Origin: Candidatus Woesearchaeota archaeon
GTDB lineage: Archaea > Nanobdellota > Nanobdellia > Woesearchaeales > UBA11576
Length of the DNA: 64,000 nucleotides
Reading direction: 5' to 3'
Assembly (NCBI GenBank): GCA_018675335.1
Contig: JABGYH010000007.1
Coordinates: forward strand, 47,902 to 111,901
The notes beneath the pieces were generated by a model. That model ran no database searches and was not told the DNA's origin. It saw nothing but the letters and a program-made list of their open reading frames with translations. Both the position numbers and the translations under genes were made by a program. Positions within the stretch are counted from its first letter, which is position 1. The number at the start of each line of letters is the position of its first letter. This document shows, one piece after another, positions 40,233 through 55,410 of the stretch.

Positions 40233-41903
40233 TTATTTCGAACTAGTCTTTCTTTTTTCAAATCGCTTTTTTACTTGGTAAAAATTAGAATACAAATGTT
40301 TAGATGAATGATTATCCATACGACCACAAACAAAATTAGGATTTGATTTAACTGAAGGTTTCCAAACATAACTTGGCAATAAAACTCTCCAATTACTTTT
40401 GTAATTCTGACTAAACATCCAATAAAAAATATCCGCACTAGACAAATGATTAGTTTTAGAATCAACCCAACCAACCGCTTCAGAATTAGATAACTTGTTA
40501 GGAATACTAATATAACAAAAATTATTATTCAATGCAGAAGTAGGTGCATTCTTGCTTTGAATATTAGTTCCATCCGCAACAGAGTTAGTTAATTGAGATG
40601 GATTTTTAGCCCCATTAATTTCATGATCAATAATTGAATAACCTCCAAACATTAAACCAAATAAAGTGACTCCAACTAATGCTGCTTTTGATGGACTATG
40701 TTTTAATTGTTTAATATCTCTAAACAATCTTGATTGGCCTAATTTACTTATCACCTTTTTTGAACAGTCAGGATTTGTTTCGTAAAAATAAGAATCAGGC
40801 AATGAAGAAATATCAAAAAATGGATCTGTAGGCGAATCTGTTAAAAATATTTCTAAATCAGTATCGTTTATCGCACCTCGATCATCACTTCTAGATTTAA
40901 TATCTAATTTTTTTAATGTTTTTTTAGATGCTAAATTTTTTGGCCTATTTTTCTTTCGTCCAAAAGAATCATTTAACCCATTTTTGTCTAAAGTAGCAAC
41001 TCCAGATTTTGCAGAATGATCAGACTTGTAATTAGACTTATAATCAGTTGCATTTGCAAATAAATTAACCCTAGTTTGAATAGATTCTAGTAAAGAACTT
41101 AATAGATCAGAACAAGACTTAACATCATACCCTGCGTCTTTATCCGAGAATTCGTAATTAAGCTCTACGCCTTGCAAACTTAACTGATCAAGCAACCTAT
41201 CTACAAATAATAATGATTTCAAATCATAAATAGAATTGCAGTCATCCATCCAATAAATCAAGTTAGAGTCATTCAATTCAGACAAGTACCAATCAGCAAG
41301 AAAAAACGCAGATTGATTATGCGCGTATTTTGCATATTTATCATACTTATTTTCACTATTTAATTGATCTGAAATATTCGTTAAATTACATTTAATAGAG
41401 GTGATATTTTCAAATGTTAAACTAATCAATGACTCAAAAAGACTAGTATGCGGATGAGAACTATTCGAATAGAGTAAATATGGCGATTGTTTTGAATGTT
41501 GTGATTCCCCATTCAACTGATCATTTGATAAAATATATTTTACTAACCGACTAATTTCATCCCCTTTACCCGTTAAATCAATTAAATGATCTGTACAAAT
41601 AAGATCAGTTAATCCTCTAGCAGAGTTTGACAAGTTTTTACATTCAGAATAACTAAAATGATTTAATAAAAAAAATGAAACTAAATTTTCTTCTAAAGTT
41701 AAACCTGGTTTTGATACTAGAGAAGATCTAAATAACTCATTAAACCGCACATAAATATATTCTTTATCTACTGCAGTGTCAACCGAAGAGTTAGCCAATT
41801 TAGCTTGATTTGATCCATAGTGCGGGAATTGAATTGAGTTAGTTTGATCTGATTTAGCTTGGTTTGATTTGGATGCTTGTTTAATTAATTGTTTTGTTAA
41901 CAT
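40233..41903 (-). CDS. membrane-anchored protein of unknown function, last gene of the E1/JAMM operon
   Basis: The protein has about 556 residues from ATG 41903, which overlaps the upstream stop by 7 nt and has GGAGG at proper distance. A long Asn/Ser/Asp-rich N-terminal part (1-400) precedes one TM (ALVGVTLFGLMFGGYSI, about 404-425) and a 130-residue outer tail with two or three Cys (NFCYISIPNKLSN, VWKPSVKSNPNFVCGRM). The tail's GWVDSKTNHLSSADIFYWMF could be a small fold. I recognise no family. Translational coupling to the transglutaminase-like gene indicates a shared role. Confidence 0.7.
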   Translation of the reverse strand: MLTKQLIKQASKSNQAKSDQTNSIQFPHYGSNQAKLANSSVDTAVDKEYIYVRFNELFRSSLVSKPGLTLEENLVSFFLLNHFSYSECKNLSNSARGLTDLICTDHLIDLTGKGDEISRLVKYILSNDQLNGESQHSKQSPYLLYSNSSHPHTSLFESLISLTFENITSIKCNLTNISDQLNSENKYDKYAKYAHNQSAFFLADWYLSELNDSNLIYWMDDCNSIYDLKSLLFVDRLLDQLSLQGVELNYEFSDKDAGYDVKSCSDLLSSLLESIQTRVNLFANATDYKSNYKSDHSAKSGVATLDKNGLNDSFGRKKNRPKNLASKKTLKKLDIKSRSDDRGAINDTDLEIFLTDSPTDPFFDISSLPDSYFYETNPDCSKKVISKLGQSRLFRDIKQLKHSPSKAALVGVTLFGLMFGGYSIIDHEINGAKNPSQLTNSVADGTNIQSKNAPTSALNNNFCYISIPNKLSNSEAVGWVDSKTNHLSSADIFYWMFSQNYKSNWRVLLPSYVWKPSVKSNPNFVCGRMDNHSSKHLYSNFYQVKKRFEKRKTSSK

Positions 41904-43252
41904 GCCCCCTTCCTCCAAAGAGTAAACGTATCAACAAAAGAAAAATCAAATTTTGGCTTCATATGTTCATAATACGCATCAAATTGATTCTTGCTTAAAT
42001 CAACATAAATCTTTTTTTTGCCAATACCCAATTCAGACTTGATTTCTACTTGCGCAATTGCATGAGTATACATATCTTCGATTTTACTTTTAACACTAAC
42101 ATATTTAGACTTAATTCCTAATGACCGACACAACGTAATGTATAGAATTGCTTGCTCACCACAAACACCTTGACCAGAATTAAACACTTCTTCTGCAGTT
42201 CTATATCCTACTTTTCCCCTATCAGAGTCACCATAAACTATATTTAGTTTCATCCAATCAAACACTGCTTTTGACTTATGATAATCACTAAACTGCACAT
42301 ATTTTTCAACTTCAGAATACATATCTTTTGTTAACACAAAGGGATTATCTTGCCAGAAAGGAAATACTTGAGACAATACTTTTTTCTTTTCAAACTTAAT
42401 CAAACCAACTTTTTTGGGTCTTTTAATTTTTTTACTTTGTTCACGCTTTTTACTTTTCTTAATTTTTTTAGATTTTTTAGATTTTTTATATTGTTCTGAT
42501 TGTTTAGATTTATTAGATAAAGGCACAATTAATTTGGGTTCATAACTTAATTCTCGACTAACTCCTTCACCCCCATAATCGAACCCATCGACTTTTTGTT
42601 CTAATGAATCTAATTTTTCTTTAGTGAACATAAATAATTTAAAATCAACATCATAGTTTTCACCAATTCTACTTGAGTTTGACTCAATTTGTTGTTCTGC
42701 TGCAGATAATTTTTTTTCAAGCGACTGAAACTTCCAATACACACCACCTAATAAAACTAAAGAAAGAATCCCCACACTCAAATAAGTAAAAAAACTTTTG
42801 TAACTTTTTGAAGAATTAGTTTTATTCAGATTTGAATTAGTTGAATTTGTAGAAGAGGATGAAATACCCACCCCCATTAATTGATCTTGGAATAAATCAG
42901 GACGATCCGGCAGCAACATATTTATTGAAGGGATCTCATCTGAAACATCAATCGATGACCTTGCCACGCCAAGTTTTAATTTATTAGACTCAATTACTTC
43001 ACACGCACTATCATCCACAGAACTAGAAATTAAAATATCCGATATTGTTTTTAATGAAACTGGCTGAATAGGAAATGAACTATCATTTTTTACAACGTAA
43101 TCCTCCTGCGAAGAAGTATCTAAAATAGAACATAAATTCCCCCCACATAATAATCCCCTCTCTTTTTTAATCTTTAATTTAAGATCAACACCCGATAAAC
43201 TAGATTTATTTTTTTTGTTATTCTTGGCAGCATTTTTATCTTTAAAACTCAA
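41897..43252 (-). CDS. membrane-anchored transglutaminase-fold cysteine protease/peptidase
   Basis: The protein has about 451 residues. A single TM (YLSVGILSLVLLGGVYWKF, about 150-170) is followed by a Lys/Ser-rich linker and a TGc domain. The catalytic triad is in order: GVCGEQAILYITLCRSLGIK (Cys near 359), THAIAQVE (His near 395) and YVDLSKNQFD (Asp near 417). Prokaryotic TGc proteins are mostly predicted peptidases or amide hydrolases and occur in ubiquitin-like gene neighbourhoods. The start is uncertain: GTG at 43261 lies within the ribosome-binding site AGGTGAT, so the TTG at 43252 is better placed. It adjoins the JAMM gene, whose stop is at 43254. Confidence 0.85.
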   Translation of the reverse strand: MSFKDKNAAKNNKKNKSSLSGVDLKLKIKKERGLLCGGNLCSILDTSSQEDYVVKNDSSFPIQPVSLKTISDILISSSVDDSACEVIESNKLKLGVARSSIDVSDEIPSINMLLPDRPDLFQDQLMGVGISSSSTNSTNSNLNKTNSSKSYKSFFTYLSVGILSLVLLGGVYWKFQSLEKKLSAAEQQIESNSSRIGENYDVDFKLFMFTKEKLDSLEQKVDGFDYGGEGVSRELSYEPKLIVPLSNKSKQSEQYKKSKKSKKIKKSKKREQSKKIKRPKKVGLIKFEKKKVLSQVFPFWQDNPFVLTKDMYSEVEKYVQFSDYHKSKAVFDWMKLNIVYGDSDRGKVGYRTAEEVFNSGQGVCGEQAILYITLCRSLGIKSKYVSVKSKIEDMYTHAIAQVEIKSELGIGKKKIYVDLSKNQFDAYYEHMKPKFDFSFVDTFTLWRKGAC

Positions 43253-43253
43253 A

Positions 43254-44360
43254 CTAATCACCTCTACAAATAATAGAATTAGATCTTTGCTCTTGCAAAA
43301 ATCCCGGTCGCAAATAATTTCCTAAAATTTTTCCCCCATAAACAACGTTAGAACAAATTTCATCCAAAATTAAATTTAAATCATAATTAGAAAAATAATT
43401 ATCTGCGCAAGGAAATTCATTTGCATTTTTTGAGTTGATTGGACCTGATACATCATAATCCACCAATTCTAAAGTAACATTTTTAATCGAACGTGGAAAT
43501 AAATTCTTAAAATCTTGCTGCACCCTCAATTCACAATAATAATCAGATCCAATGCAAGGATTAAATCCACTTAAAAATGTTTTAGCATAAGTATTTTCAT
43601 TAACAACCAAACTAACTGCAAATGGAATATGTTGAAATTTTTTTACATTAGATTCGACAAATAATTCTAAGAATAATTTTTGAAATTTTTTAGTAAGTTT
43701 ATTTTGCCTATTAGTTCCAGATTTAAACCCCAGCTCAATAAAATAATCTGATGACCAACTTGATTGAGAATTTAGCTTTGACGCATTAAATAAAATAATC
43801 TGGGTTGAGTTATGTTGACTAGTTAAATTTTTATCAGACAACTCGGATGCATTAAAAAATAAGTTAGAATTTGAATTGTTAAACTCATCAAATGAATTAT
43901 TTAAATCAGTTAAGCAACAAACGTCCTCAACTCCAACTAATAAACTATTTTTTAAAACATTTTGGTTATGGTAATAAAGTACATCTAATTGTTCATCATC
44001 ATGTTCAGAATGAAATGCAGGATGTCCCCCATGACTATGCCACATACCTAAAATTTTATGATTATTTAACCTGGCAAGGTTATATGCTTGAGCAATGGAT
44101 GTTTCACTAAATTGACCATCAAAACTTGAAACTGTCTGCTCAGGAAATAAAAAAGCATCACTTGCAACCAAATTAACACTATCTCTCTGCGCAGTTAAAA
44201 CACCTGCAATTTCAATAGGTGAATTAACAATTTCTGAGGCCAATTTAGAATACAAACAAACTTTTTCAAATGCACGTCGAGAAATTTTAACTGGACAAAC
44301 TAATTCATCAATTTTGGATTTTAAAATAGAGCTCTCGCTAATCAAATCATCTAATCTCAT
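43254..44360 (-). CDS. JAMM/JAB-family metalloprotease (deubiquitinase-like)
   Basis: The protein has 368 residues. The JAMM motif is complete: an upstream Glu (SPIEIAGVL, about residue 50) and ILGMWHSHGGHPAFHSEHDD (about 101-120), that is H-S-H-x7-S-x2-D. These enzymes hydrolyse isopeptide or Gly-Gly bonds of ubiquitin-like proteins. The remaining 240 residues are not recognised and may give substrate specificity. GAGGT lies upstream of ATG 44360. It is 8 nt after the E1-like gene, so it is in one operon with the activating enzyme. Confidence 0.92.
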   Translation of the reverse strand: MRLDDLISESSILKSKIDELVCPVKISRRAFEKVCLYSKLASEIVNSPIEIAGVLTAQRDSVNLVASDAFLFPEQTVSSFDGQFSETSIAQAYNLARLNNHKILGMWHSHGGHPAFHSEHDDEQLDVLYYHNQNVLKNSLLVGVEDVCCLTDLNNSFDEFNNSNSNLFFNASELSDKNLTSQHNSTQIILFNASKLNSQSSWSSDYFIELGFKSGTNRQNKLTKKFQKLFLELFVESNVKKFQHIPFAVSLVVNENTYAKTFLSGFNPCIGSDYYCELRVQQDFKNLFPRSIKNVTLELVDYDVSGPINSKNANEFPCADNYFSNYDLNLILDEICSNVVYGGKILGNYLRPGFLQEQRSNSIICRGD

Positions 44361-44368
44361 TTTTTACC

Positions 44369-46330
44369 TCAAACAATTAATTTATGACACTCACACTCAC
44401 AATATCTCGAGCAAAGAATATCATCTGCAACTAAAGAAAATTTATGATCATCACTTTTTTGACAATTATACTCAAACTTATTACCCAATACAGACCCAAT
44501 TTGAGCTGTAAAAATTGACTCAGGAAAATAATCACTTAATAAAATCTTAATTCCCAAACCAACCATAAACGATCCGACAAACGCATTTGGCATCACCACA
44601 TTTGCAACAAGATCTGCGCAAGATGCAACTTCTTCCCCTCCTGCCAAACTATTTACTTCAGAACTAACTACTTCAGAACTAACTAAATCAACATAATCAT
44701 TACAACAATCTAAACATAAAGATTTACCAGGAATAAAAAAATCAGCTTCACAAAAATAAGTTCCAACAGAACCATTAATTAAAGGAACTTTCATTTCCAC
44801 AGCATAATCAGACATTAATTTGCGCGAACTCCAATTATCAACACAAGAAAAAATTAAATCATATTGCCCAGCAATTAATTGAGTTTCTAAAAAAGCCTCA
44901 TCAACAAAAACAGGATGTGCACGAATATAATCTGCTCGCCCAAATACCTCCTCTTCTGCGCACCAAATACCCATTGAATTAGTTGAACTTAATTGTTTGA
45001 GTCGCTCAGATAAAACTAGTGATTTATTTGATCCAATTTTACCAAAATAAAAAATTTGACGATTAAGATTATGCTGCTCAATAATATCCCCATCACAAAG
45101 ATCAATTACCCCTTGGTTTTTTCCAAAACCTGCCAAAACAGAATTTAATGCAACATATGTCCCAATACCCCCTAAACCAACGACCAAAATATTTTTAGAT
45201 GATAAAAAAGAACGAATAAATTTGTCAGGATTTTGGTAAAATTTGAATAAATCTAAATTAACTTTTTTATTGAAAAATTTGGACTTTTTTTTATATGGAT
45301 TTGACTTGACTTTTTTATTAAATTTTTCTTCTAACTTAAAATTAATTTTTGCATTCTTTGATCTAGCACTCAACATTTGATCATATTGGAAAAATGAATG
45401 CATAAATCCTCCAGACATAAAATCAAAAATAATAGGAGCACATAATTTTTTATCTGCCTCCAACAAACAAATCTCTTTACGAATTTCATCAACAACTAAT
45501 GTACCAATTAAACCACTGGTGAAATCTCCTTGAAAACAAGATTCGAATTCTTCAAATAAAATATTTTCCAGATTGAATTGAGTATTAAATTCAGCAGTCA
45601 TTTCAGATGCACCCCCACTCAGATTTACCCCTTCCGCAAATTTACCAATCACAGATTTAAACGTGGAACTCGACGCTGAAATTAAAGGAATTCTTACACC
45701 AAATTTTTGAAAATAAGTTTCACAAGCAGACATACAAGAATATTTAGAGCAAGGATCATTTGTAACATCAATTAATACATCAGGACTTAACAAATCTAAA
45801 AAAGGAAAAGAAATTCCCTGTTCAAATGTAGTTACTGTAATTTTCGGATTAATTTTTTTAATCATTAAATTTAATAAATCCAACTTTGTTTTAACTTCCG
45901 ATTTGATACCTGATTTAACATCAAATTTAACCTTGACTTTATCTTCAAATTTTTTATCTACTTCAAGTTTTTGAGACTTGCAACTAAAATAATTTTTTAT
46001 TTTTTTACGCCTCAACTCATCATTCAAATACCTGCCTAAGTTTAACAGGAATTCCGAAGACATAGTTTGAAATCTATTAGCCCCCTGAGCGGAACTCCCC
46101 TCAACCACATTAATTTCTGGTTCGAATAAAGATAATTTGCCAATTCCTAAACCACACAAATAAGAAATAACAAAATTAGAAATGGTTCCTGATCCTACAA
46201 TTGCAACATGCTTAGAATTAATAGTCTCTTGATCAAACCGACTTCTTAAAGATTCATCAGCACAATGGTTAATTGAAGAAGCTCCATTAATTTTTTCAAC
46301 CAAATTTATTAATTTTTGATTTGATGACAT
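44369..46330 (-). CDS. E1-like (ThiF/MoeB/UBA-type) activating enzyme with two Rossmann domains
   Basis: The protein has 653 residues from ATG 46330, one base after the upstream stop; SD-like GAGGGGAAG lies upstream. An N-terminal Rossmann domain (HVAIVGSGTISNFVISYL, about 37-54) lacks some ATP-site residues and is probably inactive. The second ThiF domain (about 370-600) has all main features: NILVVGLGGIGTYVALNS, the strand-end D of DLCDGDIIEQHNLNRQIF, FSCVDNWSSRKLMSD, and zinc-ligand cysteines CLDCC (near 539) and CSRYCECECH at the end. It should adenylate a C-terminal glycine of a small protein using ATP. The two-domain layout resembles eukaryotic E1 more than MoeB. Confidence 0.9.
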   Translation of the reverse strand: MSSNQKLINLVEKINGASSINHCADESLRSRFDQETINSKHVAIVGSGTISNFVISYLCGLGIGKLSLFEPEINVVEGSSAQGANRFQTMSSEFLLNLGRYLNDELRRKKIKNYFSCKSQKLEVDKKFEDKVKVKFDVKSGIKSEVKTKLDLLNLMIKKINPKITVTTFEQGISFPFLDLLSPDVLIDVTNDPCSKYSCMSACETYFQKFGVRIPLISASSSTFKSVIGKFAEGVNLSGGASEMTAEFNTQFNLENILFEEFESCFQGDFTSGLIGTLVVDEIRKEICLLEADKKLCAPIIFDFMSGGFMHSFFQYDQMLSARSKNAKINFKLEEKFNKKVKSNPYKKKSKFFNKKVNLDLFKFYQNPDKFIRSFLSSKNILVVGLGGIGTYVALNSVLAGFGKNQGVIDLCDGDIIEQHNLNRQIFYFGKIGSNKSLVLSERLKQLSSTNSMGIWCAEEEVFGRADYIRAHPVFVDEAFLETQLIAGQYDLIFSCVDNWSSRKLMSDYAVEMKVPLINGSVGTYFCEADFFIPGKSLCLDCCNDYVDLVSSEVVSSEVNSLAGGEEVASCADLVANVVMPNAFVGSFMVGLGIKILLSDYFPESIFTAQIGSVLGNKFEYNCQKSDDHKFSLVADDILCSRYCECECHKLIV

Positions 46331-46331
46331 C

Positions 46332-47966
46332 CTAAACTTCCCCTCTCTTAGTTTTAGAATCAACTAATAACTGTTTCAAATAACCTATCTCTCCCGCAGA
46401 CAAATGCTCTTTGTTAGTAATATTTTCAAACTCGACTTTATCTGGTGCAACTTGTAAACACGCAAGTTTTTCATCCAAATTAGGAGAATATAAATTATGC
46501 CAAGCACTTCCCCCACTGTCATATCCTTCAACAAAATGAGATCTGATTCTACTCAAATAAATTTTAATTCTAGAACTAAAATCTTGAATTAACTCCAACT
46601 GATGACGAGGAACTCCCGAAACACAAATAGTTTCAAATTTTTTTCCCAAGTTTTTAATAGAGGGATGCGCATAATTTATCATCACACACGCATCATCAAA
46701 TTTAATAAAATCCAAATTTGTTTTATTCGAAGACAAATCTAGCTCACCCCCAATCAAATTATCCAAATAAAGTTTAATCCCAATCTTCACTTCAGGAAAT
46801 TGAAAAAAATTCTTTTTCTTCTTTTCATATAAACAAAAAGAATCAACTAATGTGAATACATAAAAATCACCACCCACAATTTCAAATCCAATATTTTTTG
46901 ATGACTCGTAAAAAAAATTTTTGTCAATTAATTTAAAAATGTGATCCTCCTTGCGTTGTTTTATCAAATTTATCACGACGCCCAATCTAACAACATCTCT
47001 AATTCGAAAATATAAATTCCCAATATATTTCTTAGCCAGATCTCTTGATGATAAATTAGAACAAATAAACTTAGACTGAATAAAATTAGACTGAATAAAA
47101 TTATATCCGTTGAAATTTAATTTAATCCCTTCAGATCCAAAAACATCATAAACTGACTTTTGACAACTAATACCTCCTGAGTTGGACTTTGCAACAGTTA
47201 ATTTACTTAACAACTTGTTAATCTTCCAATTTGAATCTGGCGCAGTTTCAGAATTAAAACTTGGTTTTTTAACTAAACAATTATTAGCTTTTTGTTCGAA
47301 AATAACCTCATAAAATGCTCCCCCAACACAGAATAACTGAAAATCAAATAAAAAACAATTAGTTTTTCTAAATTCTTCCACCACCAACTGAGAAATATTA
47401 TCTTCAGTCTCCAGTAAATTTTTATTTGTTAACTTTGATTCATCTGAAACGTAACTCAGATCATCATTAAAAGAAAATTGAGGTGATTTAAAAGACTCAG
47501 AAAAATAAGAATTACCCCCCAAACTAAAAGTTTGTGGAGCTCTAAAACTAAAATCAACAAAAGGCACAATTTTTTCCAAAACAAACTTAGATAAAAAATA
47601 ATTGCCACCCAAAATGCAAGTTGAATCAAAAGACTCAGAAAAATTAATTTGTTTTACATCGCACAGAGCAATATTTACTAATTTAAAAAAATCTTTGGGA
47701 AAAAAATTTAAAACATAATCATCCAAACAAATAAATTCACTCTCTTCTTCACCTCCGCTCGCGTCTTCACCTCTACTCTCCAGCTCAATGGCAAAAATAT
47801 TCGAATATCCTAAATCATTTAATTTATTATTAGAAAAATTAATTCTTGAAAAATTTATTAACTTACCATTAAAAAAATAACCATAAAAATCAGAAAAAAA
47901 AGACTCTAAAAAACTAAAAAGTCCATTTTTTTCATCAAACAAATAAGACAAATATTTTTCGACCAC
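46332..47966 (-). CDS. candidate E2-like protein of the E1/JAMM operon
   Basis: The protein has 544 residues, starting at GTG 47966 with GAGGT eight bases upstream. Most of the N-terminal 400 residues are unrecognised. Near 405-450 a beta-rich stretch ends VMINYAHPSIKNLGKKFETI then CVSG: an HP-x(n)-C arrangement like the E2/RWD flap and active-site cysteine (in E2 enzymes, HPN...xxxC). Helices follow (about 453-500). The equivalent cysteine would lie near residue 447. The assignment is inference from local motif, predicted secondary structure and position between a possible target protein gene and the E1 gene. It could instead be a non-catalytic adaptor. Confidence 0.5.
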   Translation of the reverse strand: MVEKYLSYLFDEKNGLFSFLESFFSDFYGYFFNGKLINFSRINFSNNKLNDLGYSNIFAIELESRGEDASGGEEESEFICLDDYVLNFFPKDFFKLVNIALCDVKQINFSESFDSTCILGGNYFLSKFVLEKIVPFVDFSFRAPQTFSLGGNSYFSESFKSPQFSFNDDLSYVSDESKLTNKNLLETEDNISQLVVEEFRKTNCFLFDFQLFCVGGAFYEVIFEQKANNCLVKKPSFNSETAPDSNWKINKLLSKLTVAKSNSGGISCQKSVYDVFGSEGIKLNFNGYNFIQSNFIQSKFICSNLSSRDLAKKYIGNLYFRIRDVVRLGVVINLIKQRKEDHIFKLIDKNFFYESSKNIGFEIVGGDFYVFTLVDSFCLYEKKKKNFFQFPEVKIGIKLYLDNLIGGELDLSSNKTNLDFIKFDDACVMINYAHPSIKNLGKKFETICVSGVPRHQLELIQDFSSRIKIYLSRIRSHFVEGYDSGGSAWHNLYSPNLDEKLACLQVAPDKVEFENITNKEHLSAGEIGYLKQLLVDSKTKRGEV

Positions 47967-48001
47967 ATTACTACCTCAATTAAAAATACGGTTTTTCAAA
48001 A

Positions 48002-48427
48002 TTAAACTCCTACCTTGGACCAATATTTAACAACAATATCTAAACAATCAAAAGCAGTACCTTCAACTTCCCTAGTTCGAATATATGGTAAAACTGAATC
48101 ATCCAAACTCAGAACATTAGATTGAGAATCAGAAATATTAGAAATTTCAGACTCCCCATCATAAGCCCACACTCTCAATTTACCCTTATTTTTTGAATCC
48201 AATTCATTCAAATACCCCAAAATTTCATTACGCACATCAACTTCGTCAGCGTCGAAAACATAATCTGAATCATCAACCACATACCGCACAAACTTCATAA
48301 AATTGGACTCTTTTAACATAGCCACATGCGACGCAGGAATAATTCTTGTAATTGCCTGTTTATCTTCACCAACACTAGTTTCTAACATTGACTTAGTAGT
48401 CAAAATACCCACAAATTCATTAGACAT
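48002..48427 (-). CDS. small unknown protein of the E1/JAMM operon
   Basis: The protein has 141 residues, acidic, soluble, with about five strands and three helices. GAGGTG precedes ATG 48427. Size and position would suit a ubiquitin-like modifier or its adaptor, but the C-terminus (KYWSKVGV) lacks a di-glycine and the beta-grasp pattern is not obvious. If it is a modifier it would need processing or use a single Gly near the end. I recognise no family. Confidence 0.6.
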   Translation of the reverse strand: MSNEFVGILTTKSMLETSVGEDKQAITRIIPASHVAMLKESNFMKFVRYVVDDSDYVFDADEVDVRNEILGYLNELDSKNKGKLRVWAYDGESEISNISDSQSNVLSLDDSVLPYIRTREVEGTAFDCLDIVVKYWSKVGV

Positions 48428-48462
48428 AATTTCACCTCACAAAAAAATATTAACAAATCACA

Positions 48463-49797
48463 TTATCCACTCAATTTAGATTCAAACTCTGCCAATTCAG
48501 AATCAAAATCAAACTTAGAAACAACACGATTTGCACGAACATCATCAAATTGATCTCTAGATGATAAAGTATGCAAAACATGAGCAGTATTTGAATCACC
48601 ATTATTCAAAAAAAAATTAGTCACCTTACGATCCAAACCAAACAATTTAAGATTCTTTAACTTTTGAGTAAATGACTGAGTCAAATTATTGATTGCAGTC
48701 TCAGTAGCAAAAACATTTTCAGAAAGTGCTTGAAAACCCCCCAAATAATCTGGAGATACAACAATTAAAGAATACATGGACTTACTTCGCCTAACCGAAT
48801 TCTCAAGATCAACACCCAAATATAATAATTCCTGAACAACTGAAATAGTTTTCCACATAAGTGATTTATATTTTAAAATAAAATCTTTTTCTATGATTTT
48901 CCCATCAAATGAATTATTACTGGAAGAAAAATTCAAAAAATCCCGACGTAATTCATCCTGAGATTCTATAAGTGCATCTTCAATACATAAAACATCGGAG
49001 CTACCACTATTAACACTTGAATGTTGCTTTAATTTTTTACTCAAACCAGAATAAACAAACAATTTTTTCATTAAATCAGACTTATTCTCATCTTTACAAC
49101 TAGAAAAACTTGAAATATCAGAATTCAAAACTTTACGATAACGTTCTAAATTATTAAACTCAGCATTAAACTGAAATAAAATATTAGCTAAAATAAAATT
49201 TAATGCAACAAAATTATTAACCTGCTTTTGAAACAACAAATGTAAATTAAATGAATCGACTTTAGCAACACTATCCAGAAAATCAATAAACTTATACCAC
49301 GTGCTTTTTTTAAAATTAGAAGAAGTCTCTCGCCTAATTTTATTTTTAACTAATTTTTGAGTAAATGTTACTTCTTCCGTGGCAACACCAATATCCCTAA
49401 ATGAAAAATAAGGCTCAGTCGGAAATGGAGAATATGCAACATAATTTAAAATTCCCTCCAGAGATGATTCCGCACCTGCTTGATTTAAAAAAAAAGTATT
49501 TCCTCCAGATCTAAACGTGCAACCAGGTTCATAAATAAACTCTGAATCAAGATTAACTCTAGCAAATGGAACTAATGACTTATCTTTGCAAACCTCCTGC
49601 TCAGGCAGGCTAAGAACAGAATAATGCCCTGCATTTGAAGCTAAATCAAAAAAATCAGAACAACCAGTCCTTTTTTGTATTTTACCGTAATCATCTGACT
49701 TTGAGGAGTAACTGGAACTACAATTCGCTCCAGACCTACAAGATTTTAAAAGTTTTTTTAACTCTGAACTTGAATCATACTTTGAAATAACAACCAC
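48463..49797 (-). CDS. large unknown soluble protein of the E1/JAMM operon
   Basis: The protein has about 441-444 residues, mixed helix and strand, Ser-rich at the start, with several Cys near the N-terminus (CRSGANCSSS) and CIEDALIESQDELRRDFLNF mid-way. It ends FESKLSG, a single Gly. No TM segment or known domain. The first codon GTG (49797) falls within the ribosome-binding site GAGGTGGT; the codon ten bases further (ATT at 49788) has the expected spacing, so the start is unclear. It is 34 nt downstream of the small TM gene and 35 nt upstream of the 141-residue gene. Confidence 0.65.
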   Translation of the reverse strand: MVVISKYDSSSELKKLLKSCRSGANCSSSYSSKSDDYGKIQKRTGCSDFFDLASNAGHYSVLSLPEQEVCKDKSLVPFARVNLDSEFIYEPGCTFRSGGNTFFLNQAGAESSLEGILNYVAYSPFPTEPYFSFRDIGVATEEVTFTQKLVKNKIRRETSSNFKKSTWYKFIDFLDSVAKVDSFNLHLLFQKQVNNFVALNFILANILFQFNAEFNNLERYRKVLNSDISSFSSCKDENKSDLMKKLFVYSGLSKKLKQHSSVNSGSSDVLCIEDALIESQDELRRDFLNFSSSNNSFDGKIIEKDFILKYKSLMWKTISVVQELLYLGVDLENSVRRSKSMYSLIVVSPDYLGGFQALSENVFATETAINNLTQSFTQKLKNLKLFGLDRKVTNFFLNNGDSNTAHVLHTLSSRDQFDDVRANRVVSKFDFDSELAEFESKLSG

Positions 49798-49831
49798 CTC
49801 AAAAAAACTGCAATAACAAAAACTCTAAAAA

Positions 49832-50128
49832 CTATTCTTCAAACTTTAACAAAGAATCAATTGAATCTCCGACTTCATGTTTAATCTTATTTAACCCTCT
49901 GCGAAAAAGTTTATCACCCAATTCATTACCTGAACTAGGTTCAGAATTTAAAAACAAAAAAGAATCAATTTCAACTTGCGAATTATGCTTTTTGTCAATA
50001 AGATATGCAACAGAATACTCCCGTTTAATCTTATATTGCCTATCAGTATTAATGTAATAACCCAAAAAATATCCACAACTTGCCCCCCCAATAAAAAGAG
50101 CTAACGCTACTTTCTTAACTAAACCCAT
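49832..50128 (-). CDS. small membrane-anchored protein heading the E1/JAMM operon
   Basis: The protein has 98 residues. One N-terminal hydrophobic helix (VALALFIGGASCGYFLGYYI) is followed by a charged soluble part. AGGTGAT stands just before ATG 50128. No family is recognised. It is the first gene of the leftward series, so the operon promoter lies between 50129 and 50197. Confidence 0.55.
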   Translation of the reverse strand: MGLVKKVALALFIGGASCGYFLGYYINTDRQYKIKREYSVAYLIDKKHNSQVEIDSFLFLNSEPSSGNELGDKLFRRGLNKIKHEVGDSIDSLLKFEE

Positions 50129-50197: not shown

Positions 50198-50620
50198 TTA
50201 ATTAGCAAACATAATATTTTTCTTTTTCACATTAAAAATAGCAGTTTTTTTATCGAACATAATCTCTTGTTCAACCCGCTGTTTCAGATTATATAACATA
50301 CCCATAATAGTATCTAACTTACCCAATATATATGAAACTTCAACTGCTGAAGCATAATCAAGATCAACACACAATTTAACTAGAACTTCAAGCTCTTTTG
50401 CAGAAGCATAAGAATACCCCAAATGATTAAAAAAAACTTTAGTTGAATTACTATTCGCACCTTCTGCAATATTTAACACAATTGATGTGGAGGCACGCCT
50501 AGCTTGATCAATAATATTTCGCTCTTCGCAAGAAGGAAGTTTATTCATTAGCTTATAGATTTCTAAAACTAACTCATATGATTCATTGAATACTTTTAAT
50601 TTCTTAAATTCCCGAGCCAT
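50198..50620 (-). CDS. four-helix bundle protein (23S rRNA intervening-sequence protein, S23 family)
   Basis: The protein has 140 residues. It starts MAREFKKLKVFNESYELVLE and has RRASTSIVLNIAEGA and LGYSYASAKELEVLV, the conserved core of the S23/IVP family (Pfam 23S_rRNA_IVP). Such proteins are typically encoded inside 23S rRNA insertions in bacteria, but also free-standing; their function is unclear. Here it is free-standing, about 115 nt beyond the 23S 3' end and in the same direction as the rRNA operon. It could be read through from the rRNA or the promoter of its own. Confidence 0.85.
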   Translation of the reverse strand: MAREFKKLKVFNESYELVLEIYKLMNKLPSCEERNIIDQARRASTSIVLNIAEGANSNSTKVFFNHLGYSYASAKELEVLVKLCVDLDYASAVEVSYILGKLDTIMGMLYNLKQRVEQEIMFDKKTAIFNVKKKNIMFAN

Positions 50621-50716: not shown

Positions 50717-50734
50717 CCATACAAAGGAAAGACA
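50717..50734 (-). other. 3' arm of 23S processing stem
   Basis: CCATACAAAGGAAAGACA on the plus strand is complementary (one mismatch/wobble) to TGTCTTTCCTTTGCATGG at 53671-53688. The pair brackets the 23S gene and forms the helix cut by the splicing-type endonuclease. Confidence 0.7.
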
Positions 50735-53670
50735 AAAAACAGAACTATTGGTAACTGCATGCTAAATAACTCGCCGAAGCTCGAAACTTACACACCAGTC
50801 CCATCAAACGAATCTTTTATTCGCGTTCTCAATATCTCTTTTCGCGGCAAACTTCACGCTTAGATGCTTTCAGCGTTTATTTCTTAAGGCGTAGCTGCTC
50901 GGCAATACCTTATCAGATAACCGATCGACCAGAGGCCTCGAACCTTCGTTCCTCTCGTACTAGAAGATCCTTCCACTCAGATATTAAACATTTCCAGTAG
51001 ATATCAAACAAACTGCCTCACAGCGTTCTGAACCCAGCTCACGATCCCTTTTAATAGGTGAACACCCTCACCCTTGGCTGCTTCTGCACAACCAGGATAG
51101 GAAGAGCCGACATCGATGTAGCAAGCCGCGCCGTCGATATACTCGCAATGAATAGAAATATAATTTCAATTCAAAGAATGAGCTCTCGGGCGCGACAACT
51201 CTGTTATCCCCGGAGTAACTTTTCAGTCATTTCCAACCCCCATCAAGGAGAATTTGGAAGTTCGCTAGACCAAACTTTCGTTTTTGGATTTCTTTATGTG
51301 CAAAATCCAATCAGGCTGGCTTTTGCTCTTGCACTCTAAGATGGATTTCTGACCCACCTGAGCCAACCATTGGGCACCATCGATACCTTTTCGACGGTGT
51401 GCCACCCCAGCCAAACTGTCCACTTACTGGTGTCCTCCATTTCGGAGTTAGCAACGTAAATTTTGAAGAGTGGTGTTACATTGGCGTCTATTCACGATCT
51501 GGCGATCGTAACATGACAACTCCCACTTACACTATACAACAAAACTCACGCCGCAGCAACAAGCTACAGTAAAGTTTCACGGGGTCTTCGCTTCCCACTG
51601 GAAATCTCTGGCCTTTGCACCAGAAAAGAGTGTTCAGGGGCTTGTAATTGGGGACAGTGAGGATCTCGTTACGCCATTCATGCAGGCCGTCATTCAAACG
51701 GCAAGGCATTTCGCTACCTTAAGAGAGTTATAGTTACCCCCGCCGTTTACCTGCTCTTAGCTCCCTTGGAAAGGAGTTTCAAGTACAGGCACTGGGCAGA
51801 CGTCACCTCCTGTACGCATCCTTGCGGACTAGCAGGAAGTTATGTTTTTGTTAAACAGTCGGACCCTCTTTGTCACTGCGCCCTATGATCGCAACCATAC
51901 GATTACAAACATAGGGACCCCTTATACCGAAGATACGGGGCTAATTTGCCGAATTCCCTCAATTACATTACACCCTTACACCTTAGGCTTCTCACCTAGG
52001 GGCACCTGTGCCGGTTCTGGGTATAGATATTCAAGATTCTTTTTGATTTCTTTTTCACGGATTCCAGAAATCAACCAAACAGATCAAAAACCTGCTATTC
52101 CTAAGTTTAATCAAATTCTCATTATTACAATTCTCCTTTGACTTACATTAGTTAACACAACAGACAAATTATGTTGGTCTATTCCGAAATGTCAGAAAAC
52201 AAACTTGCGTCGCCGCACGTACTTGAATAGTAAAGGAATCTTAACCTTTTTCCCTTTCCCACAAATCAATTATGAATATGGTTAGGATTAACTTACCCTT
52301 GACTGAACTACATTGTCAAGGAACCCTTGCCCTTTCGGTGGTAGTGAATCTCACACTACTTTGGTCTTACTCTCACCAGGATTCTCATTTCTGTATGGTT
52401 CACGCAATCTTACAATCACGCTTTTGCCCGTACAGAACGCCTACTTACCATAATCCTTTCGGATATCTAAAGTATCGGTAACTAACTTAGTCCCGTCCAT
52501 CTTCAGGGCCTATATTCTTGACAAGTAAGCTGTTACGCACTTATTATAGGGTGGCTGCTTCTAAGCCAACCTCCTCGCTGTCTTTGAATATAGACACCTT
52601 TCACCCGTTCACACTTAGTTAGTATTTTGGGACCTTAACTTTAGTCTGGGTTGTTCCCCTCTCGCGACTCACCCTTACGCCGAGCCGCCGTTTCCTAAAA
52701 TCTACAATACTAAGATATTCGGAGTTGGACAAGAAACCGAGGAATTTCTCCCCCTAAATCTCCAATCCGTATCTCTACCATCTTAGTCATCTCCTTTAAG
52801 ACTTGACTACGGCCAACTTCAGTAGGAACCAGCTATCACCAGGTTCGATTGGCTTTTCACCCCTAGCCCCAAGTTAGAAGAACACTTGTCCGTAGAACCT
52901 CTTCAGGCCTCCACGAAGTATTACCTCCGCTTCACCTTACTCAGGGCTAGATCACCTGGCTTCGGGTCGTATTCAAGTGACTCAAGGCGCTTTCACACCC
53001 AACTCCTTGTTACCTGCGAGTTTCTTGGTTTCCCTTCGGATTCCTTTTTAAGTTATCCTCGCCACTTAAATACACTCCCTGGCACGTTATTCGAAACGCA
53101 CGATAGAACACCGTAATGCCCTATCACACCGTTGCTATTAGGTTTCAGAGTCTTTTAACTCCCTGTCAAGGGTTCTTTTCAACATTCCTTCACAGTACTG
53201 TACGCTATCGGACTCGAAACGTATTTAGGGTTGGAAGTTGATGCCTCCCAAATTCTTGCCTAATATCCAATAGACAATACTCAAGATACTTCTACTTCAA
53301 AATAATTTATCTCTACGGGACTATCACCCTCTATGGTATAACTTTCCAGAAAACTTGAAGTTCATTATTTTGAATAAAAAGAAGTCTTACAACACCACAT
53401 TTCTAAAGTATTACTACTCCAGATTCAGTTTGCCCTATGCTGGTTTCAATCGCCTTTACTAACAGCATCTCAGTTGATTTCTTTTCCTGCAGGTACTAAG
53501 ATGTTTCAATTCCCTGCGTTCCCTATCCTTTCGGATTTAATGAGAAGTCTCATTCAGGAACTTCCGGATCAATGCATACTTGCTACTACCCGGAAGATTT
53601 CGTAGCTTGTCACGCCCTTCATCGGCGATTCGAGCCTAGTCATCCACCTAATAGCGTGTAATTTAATAGA
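50735..53670 (-). rRNA. rrl: 23S ribosomal RNA
   Basis: The minus strand shows the archaeal 23S from AGGTGGATGACTAGGCTC near the 5' end (about 53620-53655) to the GGTTTAGA-type 3' region near 50750. Universal stretches are visible in reverse complement, for example the sarcin-ricin and peptidyl-transferase regions around 51000-51400. I set the ends by the flanking processing stem (below), so they are approximate by several bases. Length about 2.93 kb; no large insertion. No 5S gene follows within the window. Confidence 0.9.
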
Positions 53671-53924: not shown

Positions 53925-53940
53925 ATAAAAAATAAAAAAA

Positions 53941-55410
<1,470 letters not shown>

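Follow-up and report, generated by a model that had tools for sequence, protein, structure and literature searches.

An eight-gene operon with a predicted set of ubiquitin-like conjugation genes

We analysed a stretch of 64,000 nucleotides (nt), hereafter the window, from the Candidatus Woesearchaeota archaeon assembly GCA_018675335.1 (contig JABGYH010000007.1, positions 47,902 to 111,901 of the forward strand). The source genome comprises 1.7 Mb in 9 contigs and is 97% complete. Eight open reading frames (ORFs) follow one another on the minus strand of the window from 50128 to 40233, at the coordinates previously described, and encode an E1-like enzyme, a predicted ubiquitin-like modifier (Ubl), a predicted E2-like protein, two proteases and three further proteins. 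An earlier note on this DNA had described them as a tight leftward operon in which no gap or overlap exceeds 35 nt, and the ORF coordinates agree: the spacings from the first to the last gene are 34, 35, 35, -32, 8, -8 and -22 nt. The genes are given below in the order of transcription with lengths in amino acids (aa); L027 is a locus of the same genus, and L061-L063 belong to one genus of another family.

49832..50128, minus strand: first gene, 98 aa; weak N-terminal membrane segment; 97-aa homologue in L027, possible counterpart in the 78-aa gene of L061-L063
48463..49797, minus strand: 444-aa protein with no recognised fold; adaptor or ligase candidate (a guess); 353-aa homologue in L027
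48002..48427, minus strand: 141-aa predicted ubiquitin-like modifier ending in Val139-Gly140-Val141; from the model and a conserved Gly column
46332..47966, minus strand: 544-aa predicted E2-like conjugating protein, His434-Pro435 ... Cys448; from conserved residues and UBC-fold rows
44369..46363, minus strand: 664-aa E1-like enzyme with a degenerate N-terminal and an active C-terminal ThiF domain, Cys582; from Pfam ThiF, residues and tree
43254..44360, minus strand: 368-aa JAMM metalloprotease, E50, H108, H110, S118, D121; from Prok-JAB and active-site residues
41897..43261, minus strand: 454-aa membrane-anchored transglutaminase-fold (cysteine peptidase-like) protein, C367, H400, D421; from Transglut_core
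40233..41918, minus strand: last gene, 561 aa, no recognised fold, one membrane segment near 412; 582-aa homologue in L027

When the eight proteins were scanned against Pfam, ThiF, Prok-JAB and Transglut_core were found in one protein each, and the other five had no Pfam family over the cut-off. For the 544-, 444-, 561- and 98-aa proteins, nothing exceeded the cut-off in Pfam or NCBIfam. Matches to B-block_TFIIIC, RPN6_N and Imm12 were all below the cut-off and were dropped.

The core genes recur together in related archaea

The earlier note had proposed a search for the same gene order in DPANN genomes. In L027, seven of the eight genes were found in the same order (97-353-181-435-555-352-582 aa), with only the transglutaminase-fold gene missing, indicating that the arrangement is not due to chance. 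The core set recurs in related genomes as well. A profile built from 19 E1 sequences had matches at 1e-20 in 213 of the order's 352 genomes, mostly through single-domain relatives. With up to four candidates scored per genome, at least 55 places in at least 42 of the 352 cover both ThiF halves, beginning ahead of profile position 30 and reaching beyond 430 of 474.

We applied iterated profiles to 60 fetched loci and the window (61 sources, 1027 ORFs). This set holds 59 two-domain E1 genes, to which L032, L044 and L074 add nothing, as they carry no long E1. Within six same-strand genes of E1, the E2 family was present in 53 of the 59 cases and a JAMM gene in 53; both were present in 48, and 32 of these also had a detectable Ubl. 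Only one E1 gene, that of L038 at a contig start, had none of the three. Since the loci were picked by E1, these counts describe the association with this type of E1 and not the frequency among genomes. In ten loci with a single-domain E1 (L116-L125), no E2 or Ubl match was found, and a JAB match was found in three. The E2 profile matched 42 of the 371 genomes of a phylum sample, all in the window's own class (the number of other classes sampled is not stated).

Outside the profile set, the cassette is repeated in order in a Pacearchaeota locus (L110) and on an Asgard-labelled contig (L113, JALWRR010000131.1). The latter carries the whole Ubl-E2-JAMM-E1 cassette and reflects either a wider spread or a misbinned contig. 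The source genome itself has at least four places that span both E1 halves: the window operon, L025 and two in L026. L025, on C1, has Ubl, E2, JAMM and E1, and the L026 region, on C3, holds two E1 places and two E2-family genes. The window operon is one of a family of Ubl-E2-JAMM-E1 operons in Woesearchaeota-type archaea, with several copies in some genomes. In the paralogous operon L025:678-5130, protein-kinase-like, cytidylyltransferase-like and pyruvate-kinase-barrel genes follow E1.

The predicted modifier and the E2-like protein

The 141-aa protein is predicted to form a single ubiquitin-like beta-grasp domain (predicted local distance difference test, pLDDT, 89.8; predicted template modelling score, pTM, 0.83). 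The earlier note had named a beta-grasp in either this or the 444-aa protein as support for such a system; the model points to the former, and the Ubl is not the 444-aa protein. Structure comparison yielded ubiquitin-fold rows, two of which aligned ubiquitin 1-76 on model residues 5-140, so that Gly140 occupies the place of ubiquitin Gly76. In an alignment that took in 39 of the 42 Ubl matches, column 140 is Gly in 32 of 39 and column 139 in 25 of 39; most relatives have Gly-Gly at the C-terminus, where the window protein has Val139-Gly140. Gly-Gly occurs within the last 25 residues of 25 of the 42 Ubl matches, compared to 17 of 212 other ORFs of 100-200 aa.

Of the core-gene profiles, that of the Ubl is the weakest. 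Family scans of the 39 aligned members gave scattered matches only, with at most two members per family and a ThiS-like match (0.014) in one. Among 21 unrecognised genes directly upstream of E2, three are E1 itself and five have Gly-Gly in the last 25 residues (e.g., L043 and L083). Foldseek itself returned no significant row for either the Ubl or the E2 model, the top rows for E2 being unrelated proteins, and known E2s and Ubls were missed when sequence profiles were run against solved structures. In L030 (G001:C14:115000-134900), an operon region that also contains E2 and E1 has five genes matching the Ubl profile; one of the five, of 356 aa, matches the E2 profile too and is a possible Ubl-E2 fusion.

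A conserved Cys in the 544-aa protein was named in the earlier note as a mark of such a system. Indeed, the column of Cys448 holds Cys in 57 of 61 family members, and the columns of His434 and Pro435 are kept in 53 and 54 of 61, respectively. A His-Pro ahead of the Cys is the active-site pattern of E2s. The text pattern HPx(5-26)C matches 51 of the 61, but it is greedy, and at least nine rows were matched at a His-Pro further upstream or a Cys further downstream (near the N-terminus in L028 and L089), so the aligned-column counts are the better figure. The model resembles UBC/E2 folds best, with modest scores and Cap2 as the best structural row, and a profile alignment to archaeal UBCs is weak but in register, with HPN..IC laid on HPF..IC. 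L041, a JAMM, was excluded from the E2 profile.

Pfam UQ_con gave no match in the source genome, nor in 50 E2-family members at 0.05; as a control, it detected E2s in three of three Aigarchaeota/Lokiarchaeota genomes. Family scans with an alignment of the same 50 of the 61 E2 matches gave scattered matches, with no family in more than two members. A global search with the 544-aa protein, and then with its alignment, returned only the protein itself among the at most ~8,000 candidates scored, which is weak evidence of rarity.

The E1-like enzyme and the two proteases

The ThiF match in the 664-aa protein (Pfam 3.8e-39) extends over three stretches. Its start codon, TTG, is uncertain, and a database copy of the same protein has 653 aa. 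In an alignment of 62 E1s, three of them shorter single-domain sequences, the nucleotide-site residues of the second ThiF region (G396, G398, D426, K447 and D509) are invariant, and R435 is kept in 60 of 62. Cys582, the candidate catalytic cysteine by its position, is also kept in 60 of 62. In the first ThiF half, 53 of the 62 sequences keep G57 and no counterpart of the NLNRQ motif is visible in the alignment; this half was therefore taken as inactive.

Against solved structures, the E1 profile placed ubiquitin E1 on top (2.7e-37, two stretches), followed by ThiF (2.3e-36) and MoeB (1.9e-35), so that UBA1 and ThiF are indistinguishable by score. A tree built on the active domain sets 66 two-domain E1s apart from 32 other ThiF-family sequences with a support of 0.933; the 32 are all single-domain except P0009, which has part of a first half, and the tree contains no eukaryotic or Bil E1. 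The grouping with MoeB/ThiF sulphur carriers that would have spoken against the earlier proposal was not seen. With E1 as the query, a global protein search that scores at most ~8,000 candidates gave seven more relatives and a distant one; the four of the seven that were checked are all two-domain.

The 368-aa protein matches Prok-JAB (Pfam 2.9e-9), and its JAMM residues E50, H108, H110, S118 and D121 are kept in 59-60 of 62 sequences. Its closest solved chains are JAMM1 and an N11-like (Rpn11-like) protein of the 26S proteasome. The 454-aa protein matches Transglut_core (Pfam 9.3e-14). A gene of this kind lies beside E1 in six of the 61 sources (window, L040, L061, L062, L064 and L070), and C367, H400 and D421 are invariant in all six proteins. 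Judged by these residues, the active sites of both proteases are intact. The earlier assignment of an E1-like enzyme, a complete JAMM and a transglutaminase-fold protein is borne out by Pfam and by the kept active sites.

Membrane segments, accessory proteins and genomic setting

Hydropathy predicts one transmembrane segment each in the 454-aa protein (from 156) and the 561-aa protein (from 412), and the N-terminal segment of the 98-aa protein was flagged only at a lower threshold. E1 was flagged as well, at position 392, where the Rossmann core strand of its active ThiF domain lies; this stretch was discounted. The charge bias around the segment of the 454-aa protein (+3 before, 0 after) weakly suggests that its catalytic domain would lie outside; that of the 561-aa protein (+5, -2) would, on similarly weak grounds, place its N-terminal part inside. 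Among the six transglutaminase-fold proteins, only the window copy has a predicted membrane segment. Because the anchors are predicted from hydropathy and the other five proteins have none, modification of envelope proteins as the role of the operon, suggested in the earlier note, is a guess.

The window/L027 pairs were also compared as profiles with all accessory clusters of the related operons. The 561-aa pair matched best an eight-member cluster that includes the 314-aa gene of L061 (probability 66.0 over 46 columns; next 6.1). For the 444-aa pair, the best match was the L061-L063/L088 cluster with its 358-aa gene (23.7 over 146 columns; next 2.4), and for the 98-aa pair it was the 78-aa gene of L061-L063 (12.9, nearly tied with 11.1 for an unrelated position). 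Each best match sits at the matching position of L061-L063. L061 reads 78 - 358 - (70) - Ubl - E2 - JAMM - E1 - JAMM - transglutaminase - 314 aa, with an extra JAMM between E2 and E1, and L063 stops before the transglutaminase gene. Individually weak, the matches jointly fall in order, and a plan inherited in common with L061-L063 is likely. The largest accessory family overall has 23 proteins of 125-1239 aa, mostly encoded by the first gene after E1 (e.g., L056:7238-8863); the three members scanned had no Pfam family above the cut-off.

According to archaeal models, the operon is preceded on the minus strand by large-subunit (50728-53670) and small-subunit (53940-55410) rRNA genes. Between these and the operon, on the same strand and 69 nt upstream, lies a gene for a 23S-rRNA-intervening-sequence protein (50198-50620). 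On the other side, a gene for an S-layer-like protein (PF05124, 37627-40110) is convergent with the operon.

Comparison with known systems

Like BilABCD, the operon combines a Ubl, a separate E2, a JAMM and an E1 in which one of two adenylation domains is inactive, as described in passages of PMC11354881; here, Ubl and E2 are predicted. In the same passages, BilA has two tandem Ubl domains, whereas the 141-aa model has one beta-grasp domain, and BilB has a Cys-Glu-His-His motif with the His after the Cys, whereas here His-Pro precedes Cys448. The residues at C+6, C+8 and C+13 of Cys448 are Arg, Gln and Gln, with a His at C+7, which does not match this motif. Compared to Bil, the window operon has additional transglutaminase-fold and membrane proteins.

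In Caldiarchaeum and Asgard archaea, ubiquitin, E1 and E2 occur with a nearby Rpn11-type JAMM, as excerpts of PMC5654768 describe. The window operon resembles these in being archaeal, in its set of E1, JAMM and predicted Ub and E2 and in the His-Pro ... Cys, which the E2s of such genomes have too; unlike theirs, however, its E2 is unrecognised by UQ_con. A RING pattern was found in none of the 1027 ORFs of at least 55 aa, by a regular expression that can miss divergent or shorter RINGs.

PRTRC, or Iyer operon type 6d, likewise brings Ub-like, JAB, E1-like and E2-like genes together, but its E2 has, according to passages of PMC1779556, a His after the Cys in place of the classical one, whereas here the His precedes Cys448. 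The NCBIfam models PRTRC_A and PRTRC_ThiF reached 14.7 and 37.1 bits (cut-offs 101.8 and 144.75). Type II CBASS, with Cap2/Cap3, and 6A-MBL share the E1, E2 and JAMM chemistry, and Cap2 is the top structural row of the E2 model. In Cap2, E2 and E1 form one protein. The same holds for 6A-MBL in the part of PMC1779556 that deals with it. In the window, in contrast, E1 and E2 are separate genes, the Ubl is free, and Pfam found no CD-NTase domain in the operon. Judged by the tested features, the operon falls outside the Bil, PRTRC, CBASS and UQ_con-type (Caldiarchaeum) systems; it would work like a ubiquitin-type cascade.

Proposed pathway and alternatives

Core co-occurrence, the predicted Ubl fold with its C-terminal Gly, the His-Pro...Cys of the E2-like protein and the catalytic residues of E1 and JAMM, together with the partly colinear gene order in another family, make it likely that Ubl, E1, E2 and JAMM work as one reversible protein-tagging cascade. 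A protease, likely JAMM, would strip Val141 and expose Gly140 of the modifier. The C-terminal ThiF domain of E1 would adenylate it and, judging from position, probably load it on Cys582. Motif and fold suggest Cys448 of the 544-aa protein as the next carrier, from which the modifier would be attached to its targets; the 444- or 561-aa protein may, as a guess, serve as adaptor or ligase in this step. JAMM and the transglutaminase-fold protein would take the tag off again. The segments of the 98-, 454- and 561-aa proteins weakly suggest that the window copy may act at the cell membrane. None of the genes of the window operon points to a substrate.

An unfoldase with a 20S proteasome could be the destination of tagged proteins. 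Two proteasome-family genes are present in the source genome, as is a PAN-type ATPase match, and an AAA unfoldase (493-497 aa) opens three related operons before Ubl (L034, L056 and L058; the latter two proteins are 58% and 44% identical to that of L034). The genomes of these three each have a long two-domain AAA protein and, elsewhere, a further PAN-type match, which in G049 is below the cut-off. Tagging may therefore feed unfolding or degradation in some relatives. However, an AAA gene precedes Ubl in only three of the 61 sources and is absent from the window operon, and we regard protein turnover as unlikely to be the role here. A role in antiviral defence like that of Bil/CBASS, with the Ubl put on viral or defence proteins, seems to us unlikely as well. 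The patchy spread (the 42 of 371 genomes with the E2 family) would fit defence, and bacterial E1/E2/JAMM operons include antiviral ones, as parts of PMC11354881 and PMC13373217 report. Yet PADLOC gave E1-E2 matches for the ThiF part of E1 (3.8e-16), weak JAB matches, two weak unrelated ones for Ubl and none for E2, and the Pfam scan of the operon showed neither a CD-NTase nor a nuclease or effector domain. Nine scanned neighbours include gyrase B, a dihydrouridine synthase and the S-layer-like protein, the defence models having been run on the operon only.

That the genes instead form a sulphur-carrier or small-molecule biosynthesis operon, with ThiS/MoaD/CysO-like use of Ubl, E1 and JAMM, is very improbable. 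By profile score, the active E1 domain is about equally close to ThiF, MoeB and UBA1, but the tree sets two-domain E1s apart from single-domain ThiF-type sequences, which is why this role was ranked low; moreover, an E2-like protein with a conserved HP..C is present, and Pfam finds no biosynthetic genes in the operon. The L034 unfoldase, the sole one scanned, has a proteasomal-ATPase-like OB domain.

Implications

Operons with archaeal ubiquitin, E1-like and E2-like genes are placed in Aigarchaeota and Asgard archaea in the relevant parts of PMC5654768. Among the matches listed for open-licence PubMed Central (PMC), we saw none that deals with a Ubl-E2-JAMM-E1 system in DPANN, whether Woesearchaeota, Pacearchaeota or others, and ubiquitin did not turn up when PMC8204110 and PMC6349945 were searched for the word. 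If the tagging cascade proposed here is real, E2-dependent tagging would also be common in a small-genome DPANN group, given the two-domain E1 in at least 42 of 352 genomes. This would bear on the timing of the origin of the E1-E2-Ubl relay and of the His-Pro...Cys E2 site, and compact natural cascades would be on offer for biochemistry. The transglutaminase-fold partner would represent a second kind of tag-removing enzyme, none of which we found described in passages of the cited literature. Tentatively, and with more doubt than confidence, we propose that Woesearchaeota-type DPANN may run several parallel, mutually independent cascades in each cell, every one with a UBA1-like two-domain E1 and an E2 whose His-Pro...Cys site is eukaryote-like, and that the window copy, membrane-tethered and with two unrelated tag-removing proteases, may be the first archaeal Ubl system devoted to the cell surface.

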